Shown piece after piece: positions 21,901 through 53,600 of a stretch of DNA of 64,000 nt. This stretch comes from Arcuatula senhousia. Lineage: Eukaryota > Mollusca > Bivalvia > Mytilida > Mytilidae. Below the pieces are notes generated by a model, which did no database searches, was not told where the DNA came from, and saw nothing but the letters and a program-made list of their open reading frames with translations. Position 1 is the stretch's first letter, and each line of letters begins with the position of its first letter. Where the stretch lies: the NCBI GenBank assembly GCA_963971305.1, contig OZ020304.1, positions 35,574,502 through 35,638,501 of the forward strand, written 5' to 3'. Both the position numbers and the translations under genes were made by a program.

Positions 21901-24900
21901 GAACAATTTAATTAAGAACCTTGATCTTAAAAACTAGTCCGATAAAAAATTGTCTTTCGAAATCTATTTTATAATATAATAAGAAAATGAGAAATGTAAC
22001 CACGAATATAAACTTCAAATGGAAAAAAATATTAACCAAGGTTCACCTCGTTTATCTTTCAATTATTTAAGTGTTTTATTTATTTTGGCAAAGATCAGTT
22101 TCCTTACCTTTTAAGATTTTTAAAGAATCATTATTTGATTTTCACTTTTTAATTGATTTTTGGGACTAGTCTGTAGTATCTTATCATATTGTAGGGCTGG
22201 GCACTATATTCAGAATACCTCGGTGTGGAAATGGGACTCTATGCCGATGATTATGAAACGTAAGTTAGAGATATTTATTAGAACATTACATATGGTAAGA
22301 TTTGCATTTGCTGAAATTTGAGGAGCTCTCTGAATTGTCTTTATTGTAGACAGACATATCATGACATAAAAAGTAATTCTTTCCAATGTACTTTATAAAA
22401 CGTTTGATTGAATTACCATGCTTTTGAAAAATAGTACAGACAGCATGTTCTTTTTTTCAGGTTAGGGCGATACAGTGGCGAAATCTTGAGGGCATGTCGT
22501 CTTGTCGTAGATACAGGACTACATTATTACAAGTGAGTATTTTAATGATTCCCAGTTCCTAAAATTCTAAAAAATCAAGACTTGTCATCTATATCTCATT
22601 TATATCACAATACCGTATATGTGACGGTCTGTAAAACCAAATTTTAATTGACAATTGTTGAATTTGTCGGTATCAGATATAATTACACAATAATTTCATT
22701 GGTCTGGCAGCGCATGTTTGAACATTGTTCCATGATGTAAGTGATTACTAGTAGTAACGTTCAGTAACTAAAAACTTTTCTCTATAGCTTTGGGTCTTTG
22801 TATTTTGTATTAAAGCGCTTTGTCAATAGCCACTACTGGTAATGCAGGTTTGCAACAGAAATTAAACAAACTTCAATTTTTTTTCGATGAGTGGGGAATA
22901 GATGTTAACCTCTCCAAAACCAAAGCTATGATTTTTAACAAGACCGGTAGACATATCAAGGAAAAATTCTCTTTTCGTAACAAAACACTGGAGTGTACTA
23001 ATCAATATAAATATCTTGGAATAACACTAACACCGTCGGGGTCTTTTCAAGAAGCTAAAACTGATCTTTACAGGAAAGCCACAAAAGCCTTATTTGAACT
23101 TTATAAGGCTGAATATGTGTCCCTTGGGCCAAGCATCAGATCCTCATTACATATCTTTTATCATACCATTAAATCCATGCTATTATATGGTGCAGATATT
23201 TGGGGCTGTTATGTTCCACCCTCTTTTAAATATGAACATATCTGTAACTTTACAAAACAATCTAACTTTTCCCCAGCCTCTAAACTAGAACTCCACTTTA
23301 TAAAATGTATAATTGGTGTTAACAAAAAAGTCTCAAATTTTGGGGTTATGTCTGAGACAGGGAGACTTCCCATTATTTTGGATTGCTTTTAAGCAAGTAC
23401 TAATTATTGGAACAGAGTAGAAAATACTCCATCAGGCTTAATAAAAGATGCATATGAAGAATAAAAAAAGGTTCATGAGGAGGGTGGCAGATCATGGTTC
23501 TCAGCAATATCAAATATGTTCACTATATTAAAAACTCCAGGAGGAAACAAATATAAACTATGCTCAAATTCTGCTTGTAAAACTACAGTAAAGACTGATT
23601 TAAGAAAATTATATATAAACGTCTGGAACAGTTACAGGAATTTTTTAATTAATGAAAATGGAAAACTAAGAACACATGTTAAGATCAAAACAAATTTTGG
23701 TTTTGAAAAATATCTTGATTTAATAAAAGATTTCAGAAACAGAAGGTCCATTACAAAGTTAAAAATCAGTTCTCATAGATTAAAAATTTAATCGGGTCGA
23801 TATACCAAACCCTTAACTCCGTTAAATGAAAGATTATGCGAAAGTTGTTCTATAAATGAAATTGATGATGAGATTCATTATTTTACTAACTGTACTCATT
23901 TTACTACATCTAGAGAAACTCTATATGATACAATAATATACAATTATCACCCTAGTTGGTGTGTGACCCGGTGGTTTCTTTCCCCGAGAAAGTACTTTTC
24001 GAGGGGAAAGAAATGCCGGGTCACATATCATCTAGGGTGATAACTGTTATATTATATCGAATAATTAAATTAAACCATTCAATTTTGAATTTTTAACATA
24101 TTTCGGGCAATTTAACCTTTTTCCATGGGAAATATTACAGCCCATACAATATTGAAGAAAATTCGTGGGGCCACGTGCAAATTCTCATAAGAGGGTGACC
24201 TTACCATGCGACCCAACGCTTACCGGTAGACCCAGCGAAATATCACATGTCACGTGAAAACCTCCAAGCGAATCACAATAAAGATTTTTATATGAGTATA
24301 TAATATTTAAAACTAACTCACATTTCAATAATATGTCCTCTTTTAAACTATTCTGGACCTTTAACTGTGGAAATGAAACAATTTTAAATAACCTTTGTAA
24401 ATTCCTCCTGGATTCTGGAGTTATTTAAAAAAAATACAGTGTATCTGCACTGATCTGTCTTAAATTATGACAATTTCTTTGTTTATATTATTTTGTATGG
24501 CCTCATATATGTTTTCATGTATATTCTGTCATAAATAAATATTTGTACTGTTATTGCCCCTTGAGGGCCCATGATTGGTCAAATAAACTTGTATTATTTG
24601 GTAAGACCAGTAGTCTCGAGAGTAGTCTGGTCGTCGGACTTGTCTGACACAAATTTTACCAAATATATATTTGTTGAAAATTTTCTGATCGTCTATATTC
24701 ACAATCATGTTTCTTTCCTTGAATTGCACTTGTCAATATCCTTGGTGTTGTATTTGACTTTCATGTTTGATCTTTCAAGTCGTGAAAACGTACTTTCTAT
24801 ACTTTTGGTTATTGTCCTGTAAATGTTTTGGTTTAATGCTGCTAACAATATGTTACTTCTCTAAATTTTCATATACAGCACCGTGACAGAGATTACTGTT

Positions 24901-27900
24901 TAATTGATACCCGCTTCGTTACTTTATTTTTATTTTTTTACGCATTACAAAATACCAAAGTGGTATACAAAAACGGTTAATTTGATTATGCTACATATAG
25001 AGATATCAAGGAGTAACCTCTTATCAGCAGCATTTATATCAAAACATTGGAAAACATTGGAAAAGTACTCTAGCTCAAAGCATTCAAACAGGGAAGCCAA
25101 ATCCAGCACCAAGGATGTCAACCAAGAAAAGAAACATGGTGTTGTAAAAAATTTGAATTTAGTCAATCAGAAATTTCAATAATAATAGACCGTTAACTAA
25201 ATCTTTGTACATAACACTAGAGAAACAATGTTACATACACCATTACCTGTTGATTATTTCTTCAATCTTTGTAGTTAAATCTAAGCCCTTATAGTCATCA
25301 CCCCGGGGTCAACACCGAGCCTGAACACTTGGACTTTAAAACCAAAGAACGTAACTACGGTAGTTTTGTTATTACCTTTATTTATCTACAACGGTTTCTT
25401 ACCAAATGAAAATATTCAAAATCGGATACCAAATGCAATCATGCCCTTTTCTCTTTGAATTTATTTTAAAACACTGTTAGTGTTGTCTCTCTTTCATTGA
25501 TAGCTAAGTTTTCTAATTCTGGGGTAGAAAAAGTCACTTACGACTCATAATATTGTAGCTGGAGTAGAGAAAGGGCTGTGGAGTATATGCTGAATTATAC
25601 AGCATATTCAAGGGAGGCCACCGAGATAGAAGTCGATAGATATGTAACATGGCCTGGACAAGCATGTGCCTACAAATTAGGGGAAATCAAAATAATAGAG
25701 CTGAGGAAAAAGGCCGAGGATCAGTTAGGTTAGTTTTATACTATGCTATGGTAAGGAAACCATGCGGATAATTTATTACCATATTCTTAAAGTAGTGAAT
25801 GAAGCCGAATGGTGGCAAAAGGGCAGTAGACACGAACAAGAACACAAAGAAATAGACAACAAAAAAAAACACACAAAACATTCGAATAGCAATCATTTCA
25901 TCCTTTGGTTATTCGAACCGATGCATTGGTAAGTCATAATTGTATTGTGTTCAACTTTCCCTTTTTGTGTAGCAACTTTCCGTCCGCTCCTGCTTATGGA
26001 GTCTTCGTATCACTGTTGATTCGTTACTCCATAGCTTGTGGGAATGACATCGATTTCCTTGGCAGAGCGTCACGTCTGTCACAAAAAGTGATAACACAGG
26101 GCTATGTTGCTCCTCGGTTTCTGTCTTCACTCAATAAATTTTACAGAAGACATCGTGCTCATAGACAAATACAGGATTTCTATCTCTCTCTCAGATGAAT
26201 GCAGATGTTGGTTTGTCATATTCCTTTACCGGTATTGACATACTGAACTGGAAATTGGCAGACGAACGGGTGCGCTTTAGCAAGCAGGAACTGATTATTC
26301 TTCCGGAGTACTAGTACCTGAGTTCCCCCTCGTTACGACTTGACTTCGCGGTGTTGATTTCTGTTCGGATGTTTTTGTGGTTTTTGTTTTTTCTTCGTGC
26401 TATTCGTTATGTTTACTGGTTTTGACGTTGCCCTATCCGACTTTTGATACTCTAATGCTCCATTGGTGCCTCTTTGCTTCTCTCTTCAAGTTCAACGTTA
26501 TTTAAAAATTACAAGTTACTACTTTTAGCATTTTTGGTGAGTCTAATGACATTGTGCACTGATCCCCAGTTTTACTTTTTAGCTCACCTGGACCGAAGGT
26601 CCAGGTGAGCTATTACCATCACTTGGCGTCCGTCGTCGTCGTCTGTCGTCGTCGTCGTCTGTCGTCGTCGTCTGTTAACAATTTTTCAAAAATCTTCTCC
26701 TCTGAAACTACCAAACAGAATTTAATGAAACTTGGTATGAATGATCCTTAGGGTGTCCTGCACCAAACTTGTGTTTTGATTTTTAATCCGTTAAAAAACA
26801 TGGCCGCCGTTACTAAAAATAGACTAGGGGGGTCAGACTACTGTTTTTGGCTTATAAATCAAAAAGTATAAGAGATAGAGGAAATCTGAGGCACGATACT
26901 GATTCAGCATCAAAAGCTCTACAAAAGTCTCCATTTGGTCAAAGTTGTCAGATGACCCCTTATAGGGGTTACGGCCCCTTAAAGGTGAAAAATAGCATTT
27001 TTTCATGTTTTTGGCCTACAGAATGAAAACTTTTGCAGATAGAGATTAGCTGTTGCTTGCTTAAATGTTCAGCTCATTTAACTCTACAAAAGTCTCCATA
27101 GGGTCGAAATTGTCAGATGACCCCTTATAGGGGTTACGGCCCCTTAAAGTTGAAAAATAGCCATTTTTCATGTTTTTGGCCTACAGAATGAAAACTATTG
27201 CAGATAGAGATTAGCTGTTGCTTGCTTAAATGTTTAGCTCATTTAGCTCTACGAAAGTCTCCATAGCATCGAAGTTGTCAGATAACCCCTTATAGGGGTT
27301 ACGGCCCCGGAAAAATGGCATTTTTTCATGTTTTTGGCCTACAGAATGAAAACTATTGCACATAGAGATTAGCTGTTGCTTGCTTAAATGTTCAGCTCAT
27401 TGAGCTCTACAAAATTCTCCATAGGGTCGAAGTTGGCAGATGACCCCTTATAGGGGTTACGGCCCCTGAAAAATAGCGATTTTTCATGTTTTTGGCCTAC
27501 AGAATGAAAACTATTGCAGAAAGAGATTAGCTGTTGCTTGCTTAAATGTTCAGCTCATTTAGCTTTACAAAATTCTCCATAGGGTTGAAGTTGTCAGATG
27601 ATCCCTTATAGGGGTTACGGCCCCTGAAAAATAGCCATTTTTCATGTTTTTGGCCTACAGAATGAAAACTATTGCAGATAGAGATTAGCTGTTGGTTGCT
27701 TAAATGTTCAGCTCATTTAGCTCTACAAAAGTCTTCATAGGGTCGAAGTTTTCAGATGACTCCTTATAGGGGTTATGGCCCCTTATAGGTGAAAAATGGT
27801 GTTTTTGGCCTATAGAATGAAAACTATTGCAGGTAGAGAAAAGCTGTTGCTTGCTTAAATGTTCAGCTCATTTAGCTCTACAAAAGTATAGGGTCAACAT

Positions 27901-30925: not shown

Positions 30926-31589
30926 ACACATCGTCTTTTAACAGGAGCACAAAATATAAGAAAAGCAGTTTGTTCCAGAATTTGATACAACAGTTGTAAA
31001 TTTGCTGACACAACAAACTTAGCATTAATCTTTATCAGATCAGAAATGATATTTTATTACTGGTAAAAAGATAAATAGTTGCATAAATCTTGCCAATTTC
31101 TCATGGATAAAGTAAACATCTTCGTTCAAAACTAAATATTTTGTCAGTTAATTTCAAGCTTACTAACACAATGGTAGCTTTACATTACATAATTTGGTTT
31201 ATTCTATCATGTTCTAGTAATGCTTTTACATTTAATGGAGGAAATTCGTCTAATTCTGTGGATATTCCGTTAGTGACAAAATTAAATGCCCCTTTATTAG
31301 CTGTACTTGATATCTCTGAATTGACCGAACAAATCAAGGAAAACATTAAAGGAGAAGTAACGAAACAATTTTCTGACTCTATCGAAACTGCTGTAAGAGA
31401 TGTTCTTTCTGCCAAGTCGGAAAGTAACGGTAAGACGTTTTGGATTAAAGAGTATTTTTAGATTTTACCTAAAATTTATAATTTTTTAAGAAGATAAGGT
31501 GCTGATTTTAAGTATTTTCCTAGAATTTATTCTGCAGAGTAGCTTATATGTATGTGAAGGTTTTTTTTTTAAACTTGTAACGTACTTAG

Positions 31590-31815
31590 TTATGGTTTTA
31601 CATTTAATGGAGGAAATTCGTCTAATTCTGTGGATATAAAATGCCCCTTTATTAGCTGTCCTTGGAGTATAGAGTATTTTAAAATTTTAACTAAAATCAT
31701 TTAATTTTTTAAAGAAGATAAAAGTTATAAGTGCATATTTTAAGTATTTTTCTGACATATTTTTTCTACAGAGTGGCTTATATATGTGAAGGTTTTTTTT
31801 AAAACTTGTATCGTA
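31590..31815 (+). repeat. Partial duplication of C1q exon 1 and adjacent intron
   Basis: TTTTACATTTAATGGAGGAA and TCGTCTAATTCTGTGGATAT at 31594-31637 copy exon 1 (31220-31265). AATGCCCCTTTATTAGCTGT and the AT-rich intron words after the exon recur as well. The copy has internal deletions and no start codon, so it is non-coding debris of a tandem duplication inside intron 1. Confidence 0.75.
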
Positions 31816-31850
31816 CTTTTGAAATATTTTATATGTTTTGCTAGTTTTGA

Positions 31851-32108
<258 letters not shown>

Positions 32109-32530: not shown

Positions 32531-33049
32531 ATAAAATGTGTATTTGTTCAAACCTCTATGTAGTAGCATTTAGTTATTGATCAAATATGAACAAAACACT
32601 TTGAAAGATGTAAATATCTAAAGTGTATTAGATTCACATAATTATGTATTGTTAGGATCTATCTTTTAAGAAATTTTTAATTGTTTTCATTTTTTTTTCT
32701 GTTTAGTCAACCTGTAACATGCAATATCGGTTGCACAAATTTATAAAAAAAATAAAAAAAACAGTAGAACAAATACCGATTTTTTTGCTTTATCAGTATG
32801 GATAGATGATGCTTTAGATTTCTTGTTTCAGGTGAACAAGGACCACCGGGCTCACCAGGTTCTAATGGATGGCCAGGTGACCCGGGGGTACCGGGTAGAG
32901 ATGGGTATCCAGGAGATGCCGGGGAGCGGGGAATGCCAGGAGTGCCGGGAATAGTAGGTCCCATTGGCCCGGCAGGAGAAGTCATACTGGTACAGGATTG
33001 TGTAAATACCCGCCAACCTGCCATCAAGACCGCCAACGTCGGCAACATT

Positions 33050-33335
33050 TCCGAACACCCCCTGTTCGGTAACGTCGCCAACGTCGCTAACATTACCGAA
33101 CATGGGGTTGTTCGGTAATGTCGCCATCGTCGCTAACATTTACCGAACATGGGGTTGTTCGGTAATGTCGCCAACGTCGCTAACATTTACCGAACATGAG
33201 GTTGTTCGGTAACGTCGCTAACATTTACCGAGCATGGGGTTGTTCAGTAATGTCGCCAACGTCGCTAACATTTACCGAACATGGGGTTGTTCGGTAATGT
33301 CGCCAACGTCGCCAACATTTTATGAACATTTCTAT
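33050..33335. repeat. Left-arm ~46-bp tandem repeat
   Basis: Units like GTTCGGTAATGTCGCCAACG, TCGCTAACATTTACCGAACATGGGG repeat about six times. Each unit is partly self-complementary (TTCGGTAA versus TTACCGAA). Confidence 0.85.
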
Positions 33336-34619
33336 GCATTTACTGTCACAAACATTTATTGAAACAGAACACATCCATGTTCGGCAATGTTGCCAACATA
33401 GTTTCTAATTATAGTTATTGATTGTAAGGGCAGACAACTCTTGATATTATGGTTTAATAACAAATGATGCTGATTTTTCTGTAATAACTAAAATAAGTTA
33501 CGCCCCTGACTGTTGAAACAATATTTTTTTTGTTTTTTTCAATTTTAAGATTTATATTTCCCAATAATATTCCTTTTTAACAAAAAATGCACAATACCTG
33601 GCTTTAACATGTTGGAAAGGGATTTATAGAAGCATAAGGCTTGTTTCTCAATCCAGGATAAATAAAATAAACTAGTATTTTTACTATTTTCCTCTATGTA
33701 TGATGATGTATTCTATATTTGTAATTTTGTGAACTAAATTTGTATGCACCATAATTTTTTGTACTACAGGTCTTAACCAATTATTGTAATTGCGTTTGAA
33801 CCAATAAAATATTCTTATTCTTATATTCTTAATAAATATGTTTAAACTACCATTCTAAATAAGATGAAAATACATATTATTAATACATGTTTAAGCAATA
33901 AGGGCTGCTTTTACAGAGCCGCATTAAAATGTAAGCTCAAATGTTACATGTATATCAATGAATAAGACACTTGATATAAATAAAAATTTGTTTATTATTG
34001 ACGAAAGAAGGTGGAAATTTTTAGTAATAAAATAATAATTGCCTTACAATTTATATATATATCATATGCCCATAAATATATTCTGTATCCTAAAAACACT
34101 GTTCTATGACATAATTTAATGCCTTTGAATATAGTATTCCTTAAATCTTAAATGAACAGTATGTCTTTAAAAGCAAGCACCAGTTACAATTACATGTAAT
34201 GTTAGTAGATTATAAACTTTGAAACTATGTTTTGAAATTGTGCAGAATTTTGTTTGCGTTGTGTACTTTTATAGCCGCAGATAATATGATTTTATTTTTT
34301 AATTTCATGTGATTTACCACCTCAAGCTGTGCATTTCAACTTTGTTTTCATGACGGGGTATAATATTTTCACCGGGATAGAAACGTATATTGCACCAGAT
34401 AAGTCCTAACAATTGGCGATTGAAAATGATCTTCACTTGGTCCTGCTAATAAGCATTCGACCGCGTCCGATAAAGTAACATACGTTCAATCATCTCGCAG
34501 ACCTGTAAAATTATTTTGAATTTTTAATAAAATTTGGAAAAAAAAAACAATACTATAATAGTAGCATAGATCTGTATACATTAAATATTTGATATATAGG
34601 TCTATGATAGTAGTCTTCG

Positions 34620-35715
34620 TTAGTATCAGGGATATTATTCTATCAATCTCATACTGCCGTATAAACTATCAGTTTAGCATCTGTCAGCTAGGTTATTGTA
34701 AGCATTTCAATAGGTTAGCATTAGGGAGCAGCCTCGACTATAAGGTTTAGCATCAAGGAGCCGACTTGACTATCATGTAAGTGTCAGGGAGTCGTTCCGA
34801 CTATCATGTTAGCATCATGGAGCCGCCTCGACTATCAGGTTAGGGTTAGCATTTCAATAGGTTAGCATCAGGGATCCGCCTCGACTATCAGGTTAGCATC
34901 ACTGAGCCGCATCGACTATCTGGTTAGGGTCAGTATTTGAATAGGTTGGCACCAGGGAGCCTCCTCGACTATCAGGTTAGCATCACTGAGCCGCATCGAC
35001 TATCAGGTTAGGGTTAGCATTTCAATAGCTTAGCACCAGGGAGCCGCGTCGACCAACAGGTTAGGGTTAGCATTTTAATAGGTTACATTAGGCAGCCGCC
35101 TCAACTATCAAGTTAGGGTTAGCATTTCAATAGATTAGCACCAGGGAGCTGCGTCGACTATCAGGTTAGGGTTATCATTTCAATAAGTTGGCATTTGGGA
35201 GCCGCCTCGACTATCAGGTTAGGGTTAGCATTTCAATAGCTTAGCAACAGGGAGCCGCGTCGACTATCAGGTTAGGGTTAGCATTTCAAAAGGTTACATC
35301 AGGGAGCCGCCTCTACTATCAGGTTAGGGTTAGAATTTCAAAAGGTTACACCAGGGAGCCGCCTCGACTATCAGGTTAGGGTTAGCATTTGGGAGCCACA
35401 TCAACTATCAGATTAGGGTTAGAATTTCAATAGCTTAGCACCAGGGAGCCGCGTCGACTATCAGGTTAGGGTTAGCATTTCAAAAGGTTACATCAGGGAG
35501 CCGCCTCGCCTATCATGTAAGGGTTGGCATTTCCATTAGATAGATTCAGGGAGCCGCCTCGACTATCAGGTTAGGGTAAGAATTTCAATAGGTTAGCATC
35601 AGACAGCCGTCTCGACTATCAGGTTAACATCAGGGAGCCGCTTCGACTATCAGGTTAGGGTTAACATTTCAATATGTTAGTATCAGGGAGCCACCTCGAC
35701 TATAAGGTTAGGTTC
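34620..35715. repeat. ~53-bp minisatellite with telomere-like words
   Basis: Unit words GGGAGCCGCCTCGACTATCA, GGTTAGGGTTAGCATTTCAA and TAGGTTAGCATCA repeat about 20 times with insertions and deletions. It lies inside the 7.4-kb element. Confidence 0.8.
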
Positions 35716-36109
35716 ATAATGGTGCAGAATTGCTGTTTTTACTGAATTGACTGGATTGACATATGAGTTCAATTGACTGAATTGTCAAAAGAGTCAAATA
35801 AGTTACCTTAAAATCGACGTCCAATTCTCATAAATAAATTCAAATTCAAACTCATTATGTTTCTCTGATAAAAAATTCTTTCAAAGTCACTATGTATAAT
35901 CTAGTGATGTAAATTGGGGTACATGAGAGGCCTGTACAATGGTAGAACATGACTTGGAATCCATTATATATTAGATGCAAGTTTGCCTTTCATGAAATTT
36001 CTCACATCAAACCATGGGCTGAAAAAGGAGTACCTAGGGCTGGGCCTCCAGAGTCTGTAACTTCCAATTGAAACTTGGGATACAGTTTCATGTGTACTTT
36101 CTTGGGTCA

Positions 36110-36330
36110 AATAATGAGGCTGCGCAGCGCAGTCACCCGGCGGAGCGATGCCTTGGCATAGCGGAGGGCGACACCCTGAGGACTTGACTTTACTTTACTA
36201 TTCTGGAAGCAATACCAGATTGATCTTTATCTTCAGCATACAGCGCAGCGGAGGGCACCGTAGCAAGCGACACCCCTCTATCAGATACTACGATCATTTT
36301 GATCTATCTTTGTCAATTGATCTGAGAAGC
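36110..36330. repeat. GC-rich degenerate repeat
   Basis: GCGCAGCGCAGTCACCCGGC at 36122 and AGCGCAGCGGAGGGCACC at 36241 are diverged copies ~115 bp apart, with GAGGGCGACACC and AGCGACACCCCTC following. The open frame 36148-36384 passes through it and is not a recognisable protein. Confidence 0.4.
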
Positions 36331-36403
36331 GATTGTAAAAAGCACCCCCTCATTATAAGAGATGAATATGTACATACCCATTAGTGTGTTTTGTGATACC
36401 CTT

Positions 36404-36441
36404 ACAGCGGGGATACCAGTAATACTAGTATATCCCCGCTG
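36404..36441. repeat. Short perfect inverted repeat
   Basis: CAGCGGGGATA pairs with TATCCCCGCTG across a ~15-base loop containing ACTAGTAT. No terminator or RNA gene is implied. Confidence 0.6.
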
Positions 36442-36594
36442 ATACCATAGTAATAATTGAATCATTATAACGCATGTAACTCGATTTATATGACACGGGA
36501 CATCAATGGATTGAATTAAGACAATTGAACTGTGCAAAAACAATTGAGAAGGATTGACTACATTGACATTGTATTTTAATCTTTAGTCATAGTG

Positions 36595-36674
36595 CTGTTT
36601 ACTGTTTGTTTTTTGTTTTTGCCCTTTTGGACTTTTGACTCTAGAGTGCCCTATTGGTGCCTCTTTGCTGCTTC
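36595..36674 (+). mobile_element. Penelope-like 3' tail, short solo copy
   Basis: TTTTTGCCCTTTTGGACTTT followed by GCCCTATTGGTGCCTCTTTG matches the end of the tail blocks at 16911 and 26294. Confidence 0.45.
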
Positions 36675-37130
36675 AAAGTCACCATAATACCCAAAACACA
36701 TTCAGTGGTGAAATATAATTGACCCCTAACATGTAGCACAATATGAGGACATTCACTTAACCTGGAACTCAACCAAAGTTCTTCATTCTTAAAAATATAT
36801 ATATCCAACCAACTGACAACATACTTGAGTAGGCTATAATTTATAAACATTTTTTTAAAGTGCCTCAGTCTTGAATAGTGCTTGTCTGTTATATTGAATG
36901 TTTCAAAAACTGGATTCCTATTTCTTATCTTATATTTCTTACACTAATCGAAGTTTGTCAGCCTTTGATTCATACATATATAGATTTACTTATATGACTT
37001 GAGATAGTTTTTGGAACTTAGTTATTTCTAGAAACAACAGTGATGTTTGGTTTTTCACTCTTCAACTTTAACTTTACTTTTTTTTCATAACCATAAATGT
37101 TACAATGGTAAAGAGAACACGGATATTATA

Positions 37131-37708
37131 CACCTGGAAAAAAGTTAAGCACCCCCATGATTTTTTAAAATCATACATTTTCAAAACACTTTTTACCATT
37201 ATTTAACAAATAGTCATTGTAAATTCTTATTGCAAACTAAAATATGCAATGTTAAGCACAATTTAACATGTTTGTAACAAACAAAAAGATATCGTTTGTT
37301 TGCATAACACGGCATAGCAAAAAAGATGGCTTTTGTACATAAACATGGTCTCTGAAAAGTATGGTCCCCTTAAGCTCGAAACTTTTAATTAATTGTCAAA
37401 TCTCACTCGAAAAGGTAAATCATGATCAAAAGATTGATACTGTATCGTCAAAGAGTCAATTTCGAGTATGTCCTTCTTTAGCACGAAGACTGCTGAAATC
37501 CTTGTTCTTCTACTACCAGTTTTGCGTCTTGTCTCCTAAAGAGTTATCTCCCGCTTTTCATGGTAAAAATGTGCTTTTAACCGAAAGCTAACATCCCTCC
37601 AGTTACATACTGAAGAATGAAAACTGAGCAAACTCATGAAAATTAGAAATTATTTCAAATCATCGAAAAGCATAAAAAGTCTAGGGGTGCTTAACTTTTT
37701 TCCAGGTG
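37131..37708. mobile_element. Tc1/mariner-like MITE
   Basis: Inverted ends CACCTGGAAAAAAGTTAAGC / GCTTAACTTTTTTCCAGGTG continue into CACCCC/GGGGTG and are flanked by TA on both sides. At 578 bp, with no transposase, it is a non-autonomous element of the TA-targeting class. It is nested in the 7.4-kb insertion. Confidence 0.82.
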
Positions 37709-38410
37709 TATATATACAAGGTCTCAGATGCATGAGTCATGAGTTCCATGAATATTTGAGATCTTGATCCCCAATAATCCCATTCATTCTTCTTATTATC
37801 AAATAGGTCAATGTTTATAACAGTATGATAACTTCTGTGGAAAAGACAGTCCACATAAAATCACATGACAAACGGTAAAGTCAATGAAAAACCGCCAGCA
37901 GTCTTCAACGAGGCCAGTCATGAATAGGTCCAAGGTCTACTTAAAATGCATATAATTTATAATTCAAATTTAAAGTCGTTCGTATTATTTTGTTTGTTTT
38001 GTTTTGTTTTTGTTGTTGTTTGTTTGTTTTTTGTAGTTGATTTTTTTTTAAAGTTGAAATTCGCATTGTCATGACAGTCTTTTTGTATAAATTTGTTCAT
38101 AAATCACACACCAGGACCATTCCTATGTTATAATGCATGCTGCAGCAGCCGACACTGCATAGTTAGGCAATACGCGACATATTATCAGAAGAAGCGATAA
38201 AAGGGGGGATATTAAGGCCTGCTATGAGCCCTTTGTTTATTTATAGTTGTTTGTTGTAATGATAAAGTATATTTAAATGTAAACGATGATTTATTTTTTA
38301 GGTTTTTTTTCTTTTTCCCAGAGATAACAATAAACAATTAATAATTATTTTCTCAGTTTTCTCTTTTGACTCAATTTTATCACGAGGCATGTCACTATTT
38401 ACCTATCAAA

Positions 38411-38560
38411 CCAGTGGCGGATCCAGAACTTCTGAAAAGGGGGGGGGCACTAACTGGCCTAAGAGGCTTCAATGATTTCCTATATATTCAACCAAAGTTT
38501 TCCACCAAAAGGGGGGGCGGGCCACCCAGCCCCCCCCCTCGGATCCGACTATGTCAAACT
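38411..38560. repeat. GGATCC-ended inverted repeat element
   Basis: GTGGCGGATCCAGAAC with a following run of G, and a second G-run/C-run ending CCCTCGGATCCGAC, give facing GGATCC ends. Similar words occur at 45848-46070. It looks like a short interspersed element. Confidence 0.5.
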
Positions 38561-39824
38561 GACCATGCATCTACTACGTCAGAGAAAGTGTGTGCACATA
38601 TACAATGTCAATATTTGCATGTGACCATACGCGGCTTATAGGAACCAATGAAATAGCGAATTCATCCAGATCAATTTCTCCCAACTTATATGCAATATAC
38701 TTATTTTTAATAATGAGACAATAGAAAATGTCTCAGAATATCCTTATTTAGGATTACTTATTTTAAAGTCCAATGGCAACATGAGCCATGATAGTACAAC
38801 AGAATTAACCAAATAGACAAAAAAGGTATTATTTTCTATAAAGTCTTATACCAAATCTCTAAGTAATCTTCCAGTAAATGTTTCTAATAACCTCTTTGAC
38901 ACATAGGTCTTACTAGTGTATAAAAGTTGATTCGTAATATTCGTATAATTTTAATGTAGAGTCTAGAAAATTCCGAACAGAAATCTTATAGAGCTCTTTT
39001 CATTCGTTTCTGATCCCTACAATTATCACCCCTGTCAAAACAAAGTCCAAACAGAAGTGCATGTACATTCAAGTAATGTTTCACGAGATAAGAATAGGGT
39101 AAAATGAATTGCACACACATGTCCAGAAGAACATGATAAAAATGGCACCTTAATTTGTATTTTAAAAAAGAACGAGAAAGAAAACCAAATTATAAACATA
39201 TCAAATGTTTAAAAACGTTTCAAATTTAGTATGACACAGGTCACCTCATTCATTTGTCTGACATGTTGATTAAATAAGTCTACATGAAGTAGTCTAGAAT
39301 TCATACAGATATGATGTTTACCTTTCAATAAAATTTTCACAGGCTTTTTATTGTTACATATATTGTCTTTAGTTTATACTATTTACAATTTTGCCAGTTG
39401 CATCTTAAAAGCATGCAAAGATAGAATGTAATTCATATTTTATCCTGATTCTCTACGGTCTGACGACAAAATAGGTTTACTCTTCACAAGTTTTATTAAC
39501 ATCTAGAAATGATTTTATTATTAAATGTGGTAATTGATTTAGGAAATGTAATTTTATAAAAGATATAAATAAACACAAGTACATTTGTAGCATGAAGTAC
39601 ATGTACAGGTAACTGCACAGAATGTAAGAGATATATGTAATGATTGATCTCAAAACACTCAAAGCCTGAAAGGTATATGCAGGGGTTATCTTCAGGATAC
39701 AAAGCAATGATCAAAATGTAATGAAATAACAACAAAAAAATACAAGTTGCTTTTTGAAATATGTAGATGAAATATTAATGATATAATGTTGTTAACATTT
39801 TGGAACAAAAAGACTGTTACTGAC

Positions 39825-40330
39825 TATAGCAATGTTACTGAACAGGAGGTGTTCAAGAAGGTTTCCGACGATGGAGACGTTACCAAACGGGGGGCTATTT
39901 GGGAAGGTTTCCGACGATGGCGACGTTACCGAACAGGGGGCTGTTCGAGAAGGTTACCGACGATGGCGACGTTACCGAACAGGGGGCTGTTCGAGAAGGT
40001 TTCCGACGATGGCGACGTTACCGAACAGGGGGCTGTTCGAGAAGGTTACCGACGATGGCGACGTTACCGAACAGGGAGGTGTTCGAGAAGGTTTCCGACG
40101 ATGGCGACATTACCGAACAGGGGCTGTTCGAGAAGGTTACCGACGATGGCGACATTACCGAACAGGGGCTGTTCGAGAAGGTTACCGACGATGGCGACGT
40201 TACCGAACAGGGGGGTGTTCGTGAAGGTTTCCGACGATGGCGACGTTACCGAACAGGGGGCTGTTCGAGAAGGTTACCGACGATGGCGACGTTACCGAAC
40301 AGGTAGGTGTTCGTGAAGGGTTACCGACAT
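39825..40330. repeat. Right-arm ~46-bp tandem repeat
   Basis: Units containing GTTACCGACGATGGCGACGT and TACCGAACAGGGGGCTGTTC repeat about 11 times, in the orientation opposite to the left arm. All three plus-strand frames stay open because the unit has no stop and 46 is not a multiple of three. The apparent 130-176-residue frames are by-products. Confidence 0.85.
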
Positions 40331-41308
40331 AACAACATTATGAGAGGGGGTGTGTATAATGTTGGCGACGTTGGCGACATGTTGGCGGGTTGGCGGGTAT
40401 TTACACAATCCTGTACCAGCCTGGGAGAAGTAGGAAGACCTGGACCTCGAGGTCTACCTGGTAGGCCAACGCATATTTTCGTGATATGTTTGTTTAAGAC
40501 TGGTTTAAGTTAAGAGAGATTTCTTTAGAACATATTCAAATGTATTTTTTTTCTACATACAAACCATTTACCGGTACAAAAAAGTTGACAAAGAGATTTT
40601 CATGTTGACAATTGAGTTTTGATAATTTATAACATAATTCCTAGTCCACCAAATGAGAACCTAAGTTTTACGCAATTTTAGTACAAATTATTAGGATACA
40701 AACTCCTGTTCTAAATTTCATACTTTGCAGCATTATTTGTTTAAAACTTTCACGGTCGTAAAATTTGTCTTCTGTTTCTTTAGGCAAATTTGAACGCTTA
40801 CTGACTGGGTAAATGGGCAAAGACAGCTTGTTTATTTCACTTCAGATACAATTTTTTTGTCTTGGCAAAGCCTCATACAATAAATGAACATCGAGAAATA
40901 AACTTAAGAGTAAAACAGTTAAATTGTATGTTGAACAATCGAACATCAACCCAGCCAGTTTCACAAAAACATTTGCTAAGCATACACTTTGTAATTTATG
41001 TTAAAGGTACACCTGGCATGCCTGGCGAGGAAGGCCAAAAGGGAGAAAAAGGAGCCCCTGGAATATTAATACGCCAAGGACCTGTAACAGGTATTTCATT
41101 CATTAAATTCTTATAATAACATTGTTTTTGTATCACAATCACGCAAGTAGCTATAATTGGAGAACTTTTACGTGTTTTTTTATATTTAAAGTTCATCTGA
41201 GGAAAAGGATCTGTTTTCATATTAAGATATAGATACATATACATATTTCATATGTAAGAAGTATGTACCAAGAATCAATATTGTTTATTTTACCTCTTTT
41301 TATCTTCT

Positions 41309-42539
41309 TAGTTTCGACCCAGGTGAGCTGTTGCCATCACTTTGCGTCCGTCGTCGTCGTCTGTCGTCGTCCGTTAACATTTTTTTTTCTAAATTTTCCC
41401 TTTTCTCCTAAAATTGAAACTACAGAAAAGAATTTAATGAAACTTCTTATGATTGATCCTTAGGGTGTCCTGCACAAAAGTTGTGTTTCGATTTTTGATT
41501 TGTCAAAAAACATGGCCGTCGGTCCGTTGCTTAAAATAGACCAGGTGGTCAGACTTCTGTTTTGGCTTGTAATTAAAAAGAATAAGAGATAGAGAAAATC
41601 TGATGCAACCTTCTTTCTTCAGCATCAAAAGTCTCCATCTAGTCGAAGTTGTCAGATGACCTCTTATAAATGGCCAATTGGAGATCAAACATAGCTTTTT
41701 TTCATGTTTTTGCCTTACATAATGAAAACCATTGGTACCTCTGCTTCTTTTAAACCTTCAGGCTAATTAGGCTCCACAAAAGTCACTACTGTGTCAAAGG
41801 TGTCAGTTGAACTCTTATAGGAGTAAAAGCTCTTTAAAGGTAAACAAAAAATGTTTTTTTTAATGTTTTTCCCTTATAGAATGAAAGCTATTACAGATAG
41901 AGAAAAGCTGTTGCTTGCTTCAACCTTCAGTTAATTAAGTTCTACAAAAGTCTCCATTGGGTCGAAGCTGTCAGGTAAACCCTTATAGGGATTATGGCCC
42001 TTTAAAGGTAATAAAAACCCCACTTTTTATGTTTTACCCTGTAGAATGAAAATTATTATAGATAGAGAAAAGCTGTTGGTTGCTTAGACCTTCAGCCCGA
42101 TAAGATCTACAAAGTCTTCATAGGGTCGAAGCTGTCAGATGACCACTTATAGGGGTTATGTCCCTTTAAAGGTCCAAAATATCGTTTTTCATGTTTTTGC
42201 CCTGAAGACAGAAAACTATTGCAGATAGAAAAAAAGCTTTTGCTTGCTTAAACCTTCAGCTCATTTAATTCTACAAAAGTCTGCATTTGGTTAAAGCTGT
42301 CAAATGACTCCTTTTAGGGGTTATGGCCCTTTACGGTTCAAAATAGCGTGTTTTTTTTTTATGTTTTTGCCCTTTAGAATAAAAACTATTACAGACAGAA
42401 AAAGTTTGCTTAATCCTTCAGTTCATTAAGCTTTACAAAAGTCCCTATTTGGTCCAAGTTGTCAGATGACCCCTTATAGAAGACCCTTATGGCTTAAGGA
42501 CCAGGTGAGCCTGCGATTTTGGCTCCTGGGAGCCTCTTG
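41309..42539 (+). mobile_element. Tandem-repeat-cored Helentron-like element, family A (copy 3), in last C1q intron
   Basis: CCAGGTGAGCTGTTGCCATC, GTCGTCGTC repeats and the family-A blocks run to the tail GACCAGGTGAGCCTGCGATT, hairpin GGCTC-CTGG-GAGCC and end CTTG|TTT. The left half of the 5' palindrome is missing. The units are the most diverged of the four family-A copies. Confidence 0.7.
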
Positions 42540-43842: not shown

Positions 43843-45155
43843 CTTTTTAGCTCACCTGGACCGAAGTGAGCTATTGCCATCACTTGGCGTCCGTCGTCGT
43901 CGTCTGTCGTCGTCTGTCGTCCGTGAACAATTTTTCAAAAATCTTCTCCTCCGAAACTACTGAACAGAATTTAATGAAACTTGGTATGAATGATCCTTAG
44001 GGTGTCCTGCACCAAACTTGTGTTTCAATTTTTGATCCGTCAAAAAACATGGCCGCTGTTACTAAAAATAGACCAGGGGGGTCAGACTACTGTTTTTGGC
44101 TTGTAAATCAAAAAGTATAAGAGATAGATGAAATCTGATGCCACCTTACTGCTTCAGTATCAAAAGTTCTACAAAAGTCCCCATTTGGTCAAAGTTGTCA
44201 GATGGTTCCTTATAGGGGTTACAGCCCCTTAAAGGTGAAAAATAGGGTTTTTTCATGTTTTTTGCTTATAAAATGAAAACTATTGCAGATAGAGAAAAGT
44301 TGTTGCTTGCTTAAATGTTCAGCTCAATAGGCTCTACAAAAGTCTCCATTGAGTCAAAGTTTTCAGATGACCCCTTATAGGGGTTACAGCCCCTTAAAGG
44401 CCAAAAATAGTGTTTTTGGCCTATAGAATGAAAACTATTGCAGATAGAAAAAAGCTGTTGCTTGCTTAAATGTTCAGCTCATTCAGCTCTTATAAGGTCT
44501 CAATAGGGTGGAAGTTGTCAGATGACCCCTTATAGGGGTTACAGCCCCTTAAAGGCGAAAAATAGTGGTTTTGGTCTACAGAATGAAAACTATTGCAGAT
44601 AGAGAAAAGCTGTTGCTTGCTTAAATGTTCAGCTCATTTAGTTTTACAAAAGTCTACATACGTTTGAAGTTGTCAGATGACTCCTAATAGGGGTTACAGC
44701 CCCTTATAGGCAAAAAATAGTGTTTATGGCCTATAGAATGAAAACTATTGAAGATAGAGAAAAGCTGTTGCTTGCTTAAATGTTCAGCTCATTTAGTTCT
44801 ACAAAAGTCTATGAGGTTTGAAGTTGTCAGATGACCCCTTATAGGGGTTACAGCCCCTAAAAGGCAAAAAATAGTGTTTATTGAACTATTGCTGATAGAT
44901 AAAAGTTGTTGCTTGCTGAAATGTTCAGCTCATTTAGCTCTACAAAAGTCTCCATAGGGTTGAAGTTGTCAGATGACCCCTTATAGGGGTTACAGCCCCT
45001 TAAAAGGTGAATAATAGTGTTTTTTTATTATTTAGGATGAAAACTATTGCAGATGGAGAAAAGCTTTTTTCTCGCTTAAACATTGAGCTCATTTAGCTAT
45101 ACAAAAGTCTTCATAGGGTTGACATCAAGACCAGGTGAGTGATTCAGGCTCCTGC
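43843..45155 (+). mobile_element. Tandem-repeat-cored Helentron-like element, family A (copy 4)
   Basis: CTTTTTAGCTCACCTGGACC begins the head, which then shows the GTCGTC stretch, the CTTCTCC...GAAACTACTGAAC block, about six ~155-160-bp units, GACCAGGTGAGTGATTCAGG, hairpin AGGCTC-CTGC-GAGCCT and CTTG|TTT. The palindrome half after ACCGAA is shortened compared with copy 2. Confidence 0.74.
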
Positions 45156-47609: not shown

Positions 47610-50600
47610 GGGGTGGGGGTAACTTTGAGTACCGATTGTGGACCTCCCAGAGATATACCCCGTTAGCCACTTATAGGGTATATAGAGGATACATGTAGCT
47701 ATTCAAATGCCAAATCCCATTGCTAAATCTACACTTTTGAACATTTCACAAGCTCTCAAAGATAAGACCTTCATCAAATATATATAAGTTTAATAGGAAG
47801 GGGGGGGGTAACTTTGAGTACCGATTGTGGACCTCCCAGAGATATACCCCGTTAGCCACTTATAGGGTATATAGAGGATACATGTAGCTATTCAAATGCC
47901 AAATCCCATTGCTAAATCTACACTTTTGAACATTTCACAAGCTCTCAAAGATAAGACCTTCATCAAATATATATAAGTTTAATAGGAAGGGGGGGGTAAC
48001 TTTGAGTACCGATTGTGGACCTCCCAGAGATATACCCCGTTAGCCACTTATAGGGTATATAGAGGATACATGTAGCTATTCAAATGCCAAATCCCATTGC
48101 TAAATCTACACTTTTGAACATTTCACAAGCTCTCAAAGATAAGACCTTCATCAAATATATATAAGTTTAATAGGAAGGGGGGGGGGGTAACTTTGAGTAC
48201 CGATTGTGGACCTCCCAGAGATATACCCCGTTAGCCACTTATAGGGTATATAGAGGATACATGTAGCTATTCAAATGCCAAATCCCATTGCTAAATCTAC
48301 ACTTTTGAACATTTCACAAGCTCTCAAAGATAAGACCTTCATCAAATATATATAAGTTTAATAGGAAGGGGGGGGGGTAACTTTGAGTACCGATTGTGGA
48401 CCTCCCAGAGATATACCCCGTTAGCCACTTATAGGGTATATAGAGGATACATGTAGCTATTCAAATGCCAAATCCCATTGCTAAATCTACACTTTTGAAC
48501 ATTTCACAAGCTCTCAAAGATAAGACCTTCATCAAATATATATAAGTTTAATAGGAAGGGGGGGGTAACTTTGAGTACCGATTGTGGACCTCCCAGAGAT
48601 ATACCCCGTTAGCCACTTATAGGGTATATAGAGGATACATGTAGCTATTCAAATGCCAAATCCCATTGCTAAATCTACACTTTTGAACATTTCACAAGCT
48701 CTCAAAGATAAGACCTTCATCAAATATATATAAGTTTAATAGGAAGGGGGGGGGTAACTTTGAGTACCGATTGTGGACCTCCCAGAGATATACCCCGTTA
48801 GCCACTTATAGGGTATATAGAGGATACATGTAGCTATTCAAATGCCAAATCCCATTGCTAAATCTACACTTTTGAACATTTCACAAGCTCTCAAAGATAA
48901 GACCTTCATCAAATATATATAAGTTTAATAGGAAGGGGGGGGGTAACTTTGAGTACCGATTGTGGACCTCCCAGAGATATACCCCGTTAGCCACTTATAG
49001 GGTATATAGAGGATACATGTAGCTATTCAAATGCCAAATCCCATTGCTAAATCTACACTTTTGAACATTTCACAAGCTCTCAAAGATAAGACCTTCATCA
49101 AATATATATAAGTTTAATAGGAAGGGGGGGGGGTAACTTTGAGTACCGATTGTGGACCTCCCAGAGATATACCCCGTTAGCCACTTATAGGGTATATAGA
49201 GGATACATGTAGCTATTCAAATGCCAAATCCCATTGCTAAATCTACACTTTTGAACATTTCACAAGCTCTCAAAGATAAGACCTTCATCAAATATATATA
49301 AGTTTAATAGGAAGGGGGGGGGTAACTTTGAGTACCGATTGTGGACCTCCCAGAGATATACCCCGTTAGCCACTTATAGGGTATATAGAGGATACATGTA
49401 GCTATTCAAATGCCAAATCCCATTGCTAAATCTACACTTTTGAACATTTCACAAGCTCTCAAAGATAAGACCTTCATCAAATATATATAAGTTTAATAGG
49501 AAGGGGGGGGTAACTTTGAGTACCGATTGTGGACCTCCCAGAGATATACCCCGTTAGCCACTTATAGGGTATATAGAGGATACATGTAGCTATTCAAATG
49601 CCAAATCCCATTGCTAAATCTACACTTTTGAACATTTCACAAGCTCTCAAAGATAAGACCTTCATCAAATATATATAAGTTTAATAGGAAGGGGGGGGTA
49701 ACTTTGAGTACCGATTGTGGACCTCCCAGAGATATACCCCGTTAGCCACTTATAGGGTATATAGAGGATACATGTAGCTATTCAAATGCCAAATCCCATT
49801 GCTAAATCTACACTTTTGAACATTTCACAAGCTCTCAAAGATAAGACCTTCATCAAATATATATAAGTTTAATAGGAAGGGGGGGGGTAACTTTGAGTAC
49901 CGATTGTGGACCTCCCAGAGATATACCCCGTTAGCCACTTATAGGGTATATAGAGGATACATGTAGCTATTCAAATGCCAAATCCCATTGCTAAATCTAC
50001 ACTTTTGAACATTTCACAAGCTCTCAAAGATAAGACCTTCATCAAATATATATAAGTTTAATAGGAAGGGGGGGGTAACTTTGAGTACCGATTGTGGACC
50101 TCCCAGAGATATACCCCGTTAGCCACTTATAGGGTATATAGAGGATACATGTAGCTATTCAAATGCCAAATCCCATTGCTAAATCTACACTTTTGAACAT
50201 TTCACAAGCTCTCAAAGATAAGACCTTCATCAAATATATATAAGTTTAATAGGAAGGGGGGGGGTAACTTTGAGTACCGATTGTGGACCTCCCAGAGATA
50301 TACCCCGTTAGCCACTTATAGGGTATATAGAGGATACATGTAGCTATTCAAATGCCAAATCCCATTGCTAAATCTACACTTTTGAACATTTCACAAGCTC
50401 TCAAAGATAAGACCTTCATCAAATATATATAAGTTTAATAGGAAGGGGGGGGGTAACTTTGAGTACCGATTGTGGACCTCCCAGAGATATACCCCGTTAG
50501 CCACTTATAGGGTATATAGAGGATACATGTAGCTATTCAAATGCCAAATCCCATTGCTAAATCTACACTTTTGAACATTTCACAAGCTCTCAAAGATAAG

Positions 50601-53600
50601 ACCTTCATCAAATATATATAAGTTTAATAGGAAGGGGGGGGGGTAACTTTGAGTACCGATTGTGGACCTCCCAGAGATATACCCCGTTAGCCACTTATAG
50701 GGTATATAGAGGATACATGTAGCTATTCAAATGCCAAATCCCATTGCTAAATCTACACTTTTGAACATTTCACAAGCTCTCAAAGATAAGACCTTCATCA
50801 AATATATATAAGTTTAATAGGAAGGGGGGGGGGTAACTTTGAGTACCGATTGTGGACCTCCCAGAGATATACCCCGTTAGCCACTTATAGGGTATATAGA
50901 GGATACATGTAGCTATTCAAATGCCAAATCCCATTGCTAAATCTACACTTTTGAACATTTCACAAGCTCTCAAAGATAAGACCTTCATCAAATATATATA
51001 AGTTTAATAGGAAGGGGGGGGGTAACTTTGAGTACCGATTGTGGACCTCCCAGAGATATACCCCGTTAGCCACTTATAGGGTATATAGAGGATACATGTA
51101 GCTATTCAAATGCCAAATCCCATTGCTAAATCTACACTTTTGAACATTTCACAAGCTCTCAAAGATAAGACCTTCATCAAATATATATAAGTTTAATAGG
51201 AAGGGGGGGGGTAACTTTGAGTACCGATTGTGGACCTCCCAGAGATATACCCCGTTAGCCACTTATAGGGTATATAGAGGATACATGTAGCTATTCAAAT
51301 GCCAAATCCCATTGCTAAATCTACACTTTTGAACATTTCACAAGCTCTCAAAGATAAGACCTTCATCAAATATATATAAGTTTAATAGGAAGGGGGGGGG
51401 GTAACTTTGAGTACCGATTGTGGACCTCCCAGAGATATACCCCGTTAGCCACTTATAGGGTATATAGAGGATACATGTAGCTATTCAAATGCCAAATCCC
51501 ATTGCTAAATCTACACTTTTGAACATTTCACAAGCTCTCAAAGATAAGACCTTCATCAAATATATATAAGTTTAATAGGAAGGGGGGGGGTAACTTTGAG
51601 TACCGATTGTGGACCTCCCAGAGATATACCCCGTTAGCCACTTATAGGGTATATAGAGGATACATGTAGCTATTCAAATGCCAAATCCCATTGCTAAATC
51701 TACACTTTTGAACATTTCACAAGCTCTCAAAGATAAGACCTTCATCAAATATATATAAGTTTAATAGGAAGGGGGGGGGGTAACTTTGAGTACCGATTGT
51801 GGACCTCCCAGAGATATACCCCGTTAGCCACTTATAGGGTATATAGAGGATACATGTAGCTATTCAAATGCCAAATCCCATTGCTAAATCTACACTTTTG
51901 AACATTTCACAAGCTCTCAAAGATAAGACCTTCATCAAATATATATAAGTTTAATAGGAAGGGGGGGGGTAACTTTGAGTACCGATTGTGGACCTCCCAG
52001 AGATATACCCCGTTAGCCACTTATAGGGTATATAGAGGATACATGTAGCTATTCAAATGCCAAATCCCATTGCTAAATCTACACTTTTGAACATTTCACA
52101 AGCTCTCAAAGATAAGACCTTCATCAAATATATATAAGTTTAATAGGAAGGGGGGGGGTAACTTTGAGTACCGATTGTGGACCTCCCAGAGATATACCCC
52201 GTTAGCCACTTATAGGGTATATAGAGGATACATGTAGCTATTCAAATGCCAAATCCCATTGCTAAATCTACACTTTTGAACATTTCACAAGCTCTCAAAG
52301 ATAAGACCTTCATCAAATATATATAAGTTTAATAGGAAGGGGGGGGTAACTTTGAGTACCGATTGTGGACCTCCCAGAGATATACCCCGTTAGCCACTTA
52401 TAGGGTATATAGAGGATACATGTAGCTATTCAAATGCCAAATCCCATTGCTAAATCTACACTTTTGAACATTTCACAAGCTCTCAAAGATAAGACCTTCA
52501 TCAAATATATATAAGTTTAATAGGAAGGGGGGGGGTAACTTTGAGTACCGATTGTGGACCTCCCAGAGATATACCCCGTTAGCCACTTATAGGGTATATA
52601 GAGGATACATGTAGCTATTCAAATGCCAAATCCCATTGCTAAATCTACACTTTTGAACATTTCACAAGCTCTCAAAGATAAGACCTTCATCAAATATATA
52701 TAAGTTTAATAGGAAGGGGGGGGGGTAACTTTGAGTACCGATTGTGGACCTCCCAGAGATATACCCCGTTAGCCACTTATAGGGTATATAGAGGATACAT
52801 GTAGCTATTCAAATGCCAAATCCCATTGCTAAATCTACACTTTTGAACATTTCACAAGCTCTCAAAGATAAGACCTTCATCAAATATATATAAGTTTAAT
52901 AGGAAGGGGGGGGGGTAACTTTGAGTACCGATTGTGGACCTCCCAGAGATATACCCCGTTAGCCACTTATAGGGTATATAGAGGATACATGTAGCTATTC
53001 AAATGCCAAATCCCATTGCTAAATCTACACTTTTGAACATTTCACAAGCTCTCAAAGATAAGACCTTCATCAAATATATATAAGTTTAATAGGAAGGGGG
53101 GGGGTAACTTTGAGTACCGATTGTGGACCTCCCAGAGATATACCCCGTTAGCCACTTATAGGGTATATAGAGGATACATGTAGCTATTCAAATGCCAAAT
53201 CCCATTGCTAAATCTACACTTTTGAACATTTCACAAGCTCTCAAAGATAAGACCTTCATCAAATATATATAAGTTTAATAGGAAGGGGGGGGGGTAACTT
53301 TGAGTACCGATTGTGGACCTCCCAGAGATATACCCCGTTAGCCACTTATAGGGTATATAGAGGATACATGTAGCTATTCAAATGCCAAATCCCATTGCTA
53401 AATCTACACTTTTGAACATTTCACAAGCTCTCAAAGATAAGACCTTCATCAAATATATATAAGTTTAATAGGAAGGGGGGGGGTAACTTTGAGTACCGAT
53501 TGTGGACCTCCCAGAGATATACCCCGTTAGCCACTTATAGGGTATATAGAGGATACATGTAGCTATTCAAATGCCAAATCCCATTGCTAAATCTACACTT

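Follow-up and report, generated by a model that had tools for sequence, protein, structure and literature searches.

A foldback-type insert splits a coding exon of a predicted collagen-C1q gene in the bivalve Arcuatula senhousia

The stretch of the Arcuatula senhousia genome analysed here, referred to as the window (64,000 nucleotides; Mollusca, Bivalvia, Mytilidae; GenBank assembly GCA_963971305.1, contig OZ020304.1, positions 35,574,502 to 35,638,501 of the forward strand), contains a predicted collagen-C1q gene of five exons, the third of which is split by a 7,441-bp insert with the structure of a foldback-type transposable element. The exon model and the signal peptide are predictions from genomic sequence. 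When the insert is disregarded, the five exons form one open reading frame, 373 codons and a stop in length, all 4 introns are of phase 1, and exons 2 to 4 encode 49 consecutive Gly-X-Y triplets, none of which is broken. Exon 3 runs from 32832, preceded by TTTCAG, to 40460, followed by GTAGGC; minus the insert and one copy of the octamer GGAGAAGT, it comprises 180 bp with phase 1 at both ends and reads GEQGPP...PAGEVGRPGPRGLPG without interruption. A collagen repeat followed by a C1q domain within one predicted gene is the arrangement of the C1q-like type I group, and collagen-C1q genes are of a kind often linked to immunity. A protein search with the product lacking exon 3 returned 2,366 matches among 7,291 candidates, and most of the best 120, in a ranking driven by the collagen repeat, are otolins of vertebrates or else further collagen-C1q and collagen (MARCO) proteins, identities being 25-53%; these 120 include two scallop proteins, from Ylistrum (34%) and Argopecten (32%). 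The C1q part alone, used as a protein query, gave 0 matches among 27 candidates. At 31215-31818, in intron 1, part of exon 1 and of the intron after it recurs as a degenerate tandem copy, with identities of 78% over 95 columns and 80% over 160.

Two exact copies of GGAGAAGT (32975-32982 and 40424-40431) bracket the insert (32983-40423), so that the target-site duplication known from foldback elements is present in 8 of 8 bases. The left end of the insert starts CATACTGGTACAGG and the right end, as the reverse complement, CAGGCTGGTACAGG, with 34 of the 36 outermost bases identical between the two. In a chance test, outermost inverted pairs (exact matches of at least 14 bases, 0.3-15 kb apart) were collected from window positions 1-47500, and an identical 8-mer outside both ends at an equal distance of 0-6 was counted as a match; among the 48 inverted pairs, the only one with such a flanking 8-mer was the pair of this insert, whose ends form the sole pair of their kind in the window. 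The exact duplication, the matching ends, the unbroken Gly-X-Y pattern and the result of the chance test (1/48) support the view that a foldback-type element entered the coding sequence of exon 3 by transposition, as an earlier reading of the same DNA, here called the original prediction, had proposed; that the insert arrived by transposition is almost certain. The original prediction was also correct to the base with respect to the GGAGAAGT copies, the 180 bp of exon 3 and the stop at 33118, and the ends are indeed inverted copies of each other, with the amendment that the true termini lie 4 bp beyond the inverted repeat it had quoted. Mechanistically, a transposase supplied elsewhere would have bound the paired ends and attached them at a cut staggered by 8 bp, the repair of which would have produced the 8-bp duplication. 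The features of the gene and of the insert are collected in Table 1.

Table 1. Gene and insert features, in window coordinates
Feature	Position	Strand	Basis or remark
Exon 1, start codon, hydrophobic N-terminus resembling a signal peptide (by eye)	31171..31429	+	open, GTAAGA follows, ends in phase 1
Exon 2, Gly-X-Y collagen repeat, phase 1-1	31870..32091	+	Pfam Collagen 2.1e-17
Exon 3, left part, 151 bp, last 8 being the left duplication copy	32832..32982	+	sequence reading
Target-site duplication, left copy, GGAGAAGT	32975..32982	+	direct sequence comparison, inverted-pair scan
Inserted element, 7,441 bp, 5'-CA...TG-3' ends	32983..40423	.	direct sequence comparison, inverted-pair scan
Left terminal inverted repeat, ahead of tandem array	32983..33026	+	sequence comparison
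Left subterminal array, 47-bp units x 6.4 (one unit of 38)	33031..33320	+	tandem-repeat and dyad analysis
TAA closing the frame that reads on from exon 3 into the insert	33116..33118	+	translation
First AATAAA past the exon 3 acceptor, candidate premature polyadenylation signal	33661..33666	+	sequence scan
Internal array, ~53-bp units (AGGTTAGGGTTAGCATTTCAATAGG...), absent from arms	34690..35710	.	repeat analysis
Nested small element, 578 bp, inverted ends CACCTGGAAAAAAGTTAAGCACCCC	37131..37708	.	TA flanks, weak: inside TATATA run
Nested small element, 142 bp, CA..CGGATCC ends	38412..38553	.	TCAAAC flanks on both sides
Right subterminal array, 46-bp units x 11.2	39816..40328	+	tandem-repeat and dyad analysis
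Right terminal inverted repeat	40380..40423	-	sequence comparison
Target-site duplication, right copy, GGAGAAGT	40424..40431	+	direct sequence comparison, inverted-pair scan
Exon 3, right part, 29 bp past the second duplication copy, donor GTAGGC next	40432..40460	+	sequence reading
Exon 4, Gly-X-Y, phase 1-1	41007..41090	+	gene model
Exon 5, C1q domain and stop codon	42710..43086	+	Pfam C1q 3.7e-13

The insert has the long inverted arms of tandem repeats around a variable middle that distinguish the foldback class. Its arms, 338 bp on the left and 608 bp on the right, are 73% identical over 343 columns and hold arrays of mostly 45-47-bp units. They are not simple inverted repeats, each consisting of a terminal repeat of ~40 bases followed by a tandem array; positions 32987-33026 are 95% complementary to 40380-40419, and 2 of the outer 4 bases match. 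Because unit identity within the arms (0.87 among 5 units on the left, 0.94 among 9 units on the right) exceeds that between them (0.71 at best rotation), the two arrays look to have been homogenised separately, each on its own side. Most array units contain a CGAACA/TGTTCG dyad. The left array has 5 distinct dyads of the form CGAACA-N-TGTTCG with arms of 7-13 bp, and the right array has 10 distinct ones in 39839-40313 with arms of 6-7 bp, namely 9 CGAACA-N5-6-TGTTCG and a TGAACA/TGTTCA dyad at 39839. Overlapping dyad calls number 10 on the left and 16 on the right, against mononucleotide-shuffle means of 0.66 and 0.87 and maxima of 5 and 6, although these counts are not independent, the array units being copies of one another; overlapping calls with arms of at least 8 bp number 8 in the left array and 0 in the right. 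By analogy with the Galileo transposon, it is plausible that the dyad-bearing units are repeated transposase binding sites. The interior appears to be a mosaic of host-type repeats rather than a coding transposon, because stretches of it (36688-36799 and 36596-36672) are similar to repeats that the window contains at 11426-12099, 17040-17102, 17953-18017 and 26420-26481.

The middle of the element (33340-39815) carries 146-156 stops per 2,158 codons in each of the six frames. All 24 interior open reading frames (ORFs) of at least 50 amino acids were scanned and none scored above the Pfam cut-off (best E 0.022), nor did any of the 8 scanned among the 15 ORFs of the arrays and junctions (best E 0.0071, in an array); in particular, the ORFs scanned gave no Pfam match above cut-off to MULE, THAP/P or KDZ transposases. 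Because stops crowd all six interior frames and the scanned ORFs lack a Pfam match, the element is likely non-autonomous, and the absence of a transposase is expected of any non-autonomous copy. The window has no Rfam match at the gathering score. A 31-mer of the element end had 0 copies in viral contigs, as had the element ends together with a 26-mer of the right array, and a 23-mer of the element end had 0 in prokaryote genome contigs, these collections not having been made for animal genomes.

The element is likely a non-autonomous foldback-type cut-and-paste transposon. Foldback is a structural class and not a lineage, and the form arose in more than one superfamily. The closest fit, by analogy, is with the Mutator-type foldbacks Muta1 and Tetris, because an 8-bp duplication is combined with tandem-repeat arms; with the superfamily unproven, the element is best described as working like a Mutator-type foldback and is not filed as a member of Mutator. 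Its duplication falls within the 8-10 bp of Mutator, a range that is unspecific in that hAT and Zisupton also produce about 8 bp; P superfamily duplications are of ~8 bp as well. Its arms exceed 100 bp and have subterminal tandem repeats, as in Mutator. Ends of hAT elements are of the form YARNG, and the hAT superfamily was set aside, neither CATAC nor CAGGC, the two ends of the element, fitting this consensus. The 8-bp duplication agrees with hAT, where it is usual (PMC12730594). In Aedes aegypti, Mutator-like elements are reported with duplications of 8-9 bp across 14 families, of which 12 have arms longer than 100 bp, 10 of those 12 with subterminal tandem repeats (PMC5225508). The Muta1 group described there as "type 2 foldback" shares with the present element the varied interiors of its non-autonomous copies, whereas Muta1 itself has 12-bp repeats, 145-bp arms, a length of 3.2 kb and a transposase (PMC5225508); the element here is 7.4 kb long, with 338- and 608-bp arms, CA...TG ends and array units mostly of 45-47 bp, and no transposase was found in its scanned ORFs. 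Tetris, a foldback of Drosophila virilis, is likewise non-autonomous, without a conserved ORF, with tandem repeats inside its arms, a variable middle and duplications of 8-10 bp that are compatible with the 8 bp observed; its units, however, are of 220 bp, the likeness considered here is one of structure, and its own assignment to Mutator was made by structure only (PMC4079207).

The P-type (Galileo) and KDZ (Zisupton) groups are possible alternatives. Galileo has comparable foldback-like long arms with internal repeats, and its arm repeats are reported to hold extra binding sites for the transposase (THAP) (PMC3688188), whereas no THAP or P transposase was found in the scanned ORFs of the present element. 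An 8-bp duplication together with CA..TG ends, the combination looked for in KDZ, is present and is not specific: Zisupton makes 8-bp duplications, and CA..TG termini occur in two fungal Kyakuja families (PMC12730594). Those fungal Kyakuja differ in lacking inverted repeats and in having 7-bp duplications (PMC12730594), and no KDZ transposase was found in the scanned ORFs. The Pearl/Helentron-type elements of oysters and mussels are also non-coding and contain tandem repeats, but these are central and lie between conserved Helitron/Helentron-type ends (PMC7492417, PMC11136912), whereas the arrays described here are inverted and subterminal, with an 8-bp duplication at the flanks. Among the papers listed in literature searches on these subjects, no title or abstract opening mentions a foldback element in a bivalve or a transposon-split C1q gene, which is not proof of absence; in three oyster satellite papers that use the word, "foldback" denotes the Drosophila element Tetris.

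With regard to the consequence for the protein, translation as it stands stops at 33118, short of the C1q domain, exactly as originally predicted. The loss of function derived from this stop is nevertheless not established: with all 4 introns in phase 1, the symmetric exon 3 can be left out without a frameshift, and because such skipping keeps the C1q domain, loss of function does not follow from the stop. The junction of exon 2 with exon 4 is open to the normal stop and encodes 313 amino acids with the C1q domain retained; by arithmetic, this product has 29 Gly-X-Y triplets, that is, 49 minus the 20 of exon 3. On a rough scale, using untrained, literature-based splice matrices, the exon 2 donor scores 3.2 (the gene's 4 real donors, 2.2-5.0) and the exon 4 acceptor 2.5 (the 4 real acceptors, 2.5-8.8), while the best in-frame pair involving element sites sums to 0.9. 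Exon definition would be expected to fail at exon 3, because the next genuine donor now lies 7.6 kb from its acceptor; exon 2 would then be spliced to exon 4 through the gene's own sites, the stalk shrinking from 49 to 29 triplets with C1q kept, and some transcripts would run into the element and end there, giving a 255-residue product without C1q or undergoing decay. It is therefore probable, in our judgement, that a non-autonomous foldback-type insert splits exon 3 and that its transcripts mostly skip this exon, with a stalk 20 triplets shorter. Given transcription, we consider skipping a moderately probable main outcome and truncation or decay a serious possibility that falls short of probable, with any other main outcome unlikely; a shorter stalk rather than a plain null is thus the likely outcome. 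A close parallel has been described in the pink bollworm, where three nested elements, 3,370 bp in all, sit in exon 28 of the cadherin allele r15, which yields transcripts without exon 28 or exons 28-29 (PMC6522560). As in the present gene, a composite with nested elements landed in a coding exon; unlike here, skipping was demonstrated by complementary DNA, and the r15B form, which lacks only exon 28, is frameshifted (PMC6522560), whereas skipping of exon 3 would stay in frame.

Several observations weigh against exon skipping and the transposon model behind it. The exon 3 acceptor is strong, at 7.4 on the same rough scale, and AATAAA signals occur from 33661 onward, the sense strand of the insert containing 14 AATAAA/ATTAAA in all; a terminal exon ending inside the element is a real alternative, and the main one to skipping. 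Within the element, 23 of 419 GT and 21 of 426 AG dinucleotides reach the level of the gene's weakest real sites, so that parts of the element could become exonised. No dyad of the right array has arms of at least 8 bp, which weakens the binding-site reading on that side, and no transposase was found in the scanned ORFs. The evidence comprises one element copy in one haplotype of genomic sequence.

The terminal-exon alternative leads to a simple null allele, in which exon 3 reads into the element as far as the stop at 33118, the transcript decays or is polyadenylated inside the insert (AATAAA at 33661, 33803 and 33831), and no C1q-bearing protein is made. The stop and the strong exon 3 acceptor speak for such an allele, which we consider possible but less than probable, given the symmetry of exon 3 (phase 1-1, 180 bp) and the fact that skipping draws on no sites beyond the donor of exon 2 and the acceptor of exon 4, both already present. 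The insert might instead be removed like an intron, from sites in or near its ends, so that the protein would be almost normal apart from a short foreign stretch. The right end offers an acceptor, TTTACACAATCCTGTACCAG/CCTGG, that scores 1.0 (real acceptors 2.5-8.8) and, combined with a donor at 33115, gives an open product with ~45 foreign residues in the stalk; introners with an 8-bp duplication that add residues have also been reported (PMC9860276). This donor, however, scores -0.1 against 2.2-5.0 for real donors. A scan for clean splicing paired 21 open-frame donors (of 53 GT in 32832-33599) with 46 AG (39700-40460), and of the resulting 966 GT-AG pairs 64 were in frame and 10 had unbroken Gly-X-Y, but none retained both exon halves with unbroken Gly-X-Y. 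Intron-like removal is thus very unlikely, and clean splicing from internal sites, which the original prediction had named as evidence that would count against it, is disfavoured. The stop TAA of the left array overlaps the possible donor, TTCG/GTAATG (33115), and the CAG at the right end of the element (40419) is a possible acceptor. Introners resemble the insert as DNA elements in coding sequence, many of them with target-site duplications or terminal inverted repeats, and differ in being spliced out (PMC9860276); as no clean pair was found among the 966, a scan of GT-AG and not GC-AG sites, an introner was rejected. Finally, a misjoin of two loci or haplotypes during assembly is extremely improbable. 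Tandem arrays like the arms are hard to assemble, so that array copy numbers could be wrong, and the assembly does have an N gap in the window (55523-55622); the insert itself contains no N, however, and a misjoin would not yield an exact 8-bp duplication beside matching inverted ends, nor restore phase and Gly-X-Y across 7.4 kb.

How long the insertion has persisted bears on a further alternative, namely that the insertion is old and fixed and the gene either a pseudogene or long since settled in a form without exon 3. The 1,119 coding bp of the gene model, with intactness judged on the model itself and not against an ortholog, contain no stop, frameshift, loss of a collagen Gly or lost splice dinucleotide. 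If the gene has been unselected since the insertion, the 95% bound on divergence is 2.0% with no indels, 1.4% with 0.05 indels per substitution and 1.1% with 0.1, or 4.9%, 2.6% and 1.7%, respectively, under the same model minus the Gly sites; the duplication alone permits up to 17%. The bound weakens greatly if the skipped product works, because selection would then account for the intactness of exons 1, 2, 4 and 5, leaving the 180 bp of exon 3 as the sole informative sequence. The two nested small elements and the strongly diverged arms would allow much time if they date from after landing, and the nested elements imply more time only on that condition, since they may have travelled in with the element. 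An old insertion seems rather doubtful to us in view of the intact coding sequence, and the insertion is likely, but only conditionally, recent; the original prediction of a recent event has a conditional bound behind it, a divergence below ~1-2% if the gene has been unselected since the insertion, and the nested elements leave the age open. It is also conceivable, though quite unlikely, that the insert still segregates as a reversible stalk switch, in which the insert allele would make, by in-frame skipping, the 29-triplet form and the empty allele the 49-triplet form, both being kept because oligomer reach or binding differs, and precise excision could restore the long form. For Muta1 in yeast, precise excision is reported to be the rule when the duplication is present (PMC5225508).

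The remainder of the window is rich in repeats. A 15.8-kb satellite at 47611-63445 consists of 189-bp units that are 98-99% identical and has a single orientation for the 40-mer tested (79 exact direct copies, 0 reverse); the N gap mentioned above, 100 bases long and the sole N run of the window, lies within it. Related arrays of 155-165-bp units occur at 9857-11068, 26915-27887, 41750-42479 (intron 4 of the collagen-C1q gene) and 44256-45122; their consensus shares AGCTCATTTAGCTCTACAAAAGTCTCCATAGGGTCGAAG or something near it, as judged by eye, and the four are perhaps carried by one dispersed element type. At 5188-5907 a 42-bp unit is repeated 17 times, with at least two frames of the minus strand open. 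A DUF885-family gene lies on the plus strand in two exons, 18312-18560 (Pfam 4.3e-12) and 25551-25730 (6e-20), and 22814-23389 is a possible reverse transcriptase remnant (RVT_1 E 9.5e-4, below the curated cut-off). A 260-codon ORF on the minus strand (1-780) resembles by eye the start of a seven-helix receptor; it has no Pfam match at E 0.1, and a protein search with it gave 0 matches among 1,035 candidates.

Transposons in exons are well known, the mechanism proposed here is ordinary, and both the kind of element and the kind of event have been known before. The observation itself is real: a foldback-type insert of clean structure interrupts coding sequence of the predicted collagen-C1q gene. 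The foldback adds a structurally clear case in which the arrays on the two sides appear to have been homogenised separately. The architecture of the gene is notable in a bivalve in its own right, collagen-tailed C1q proteins being described as extremely rare in this group (PMC6835236). Because they are so rare, a natural allele with a split stalk exon would provide a ready test of stalk function, whether the effect of the insert is that the C1q head is lost or, more likely, that the exon is skipped and the stalk shortened. Massive gene presence-absence variation has been reported in mussels, where the part played by transposable elements was left undecided (PMC7653742); work of that type needs events like this one, in which one insertion retains an intact duplication.

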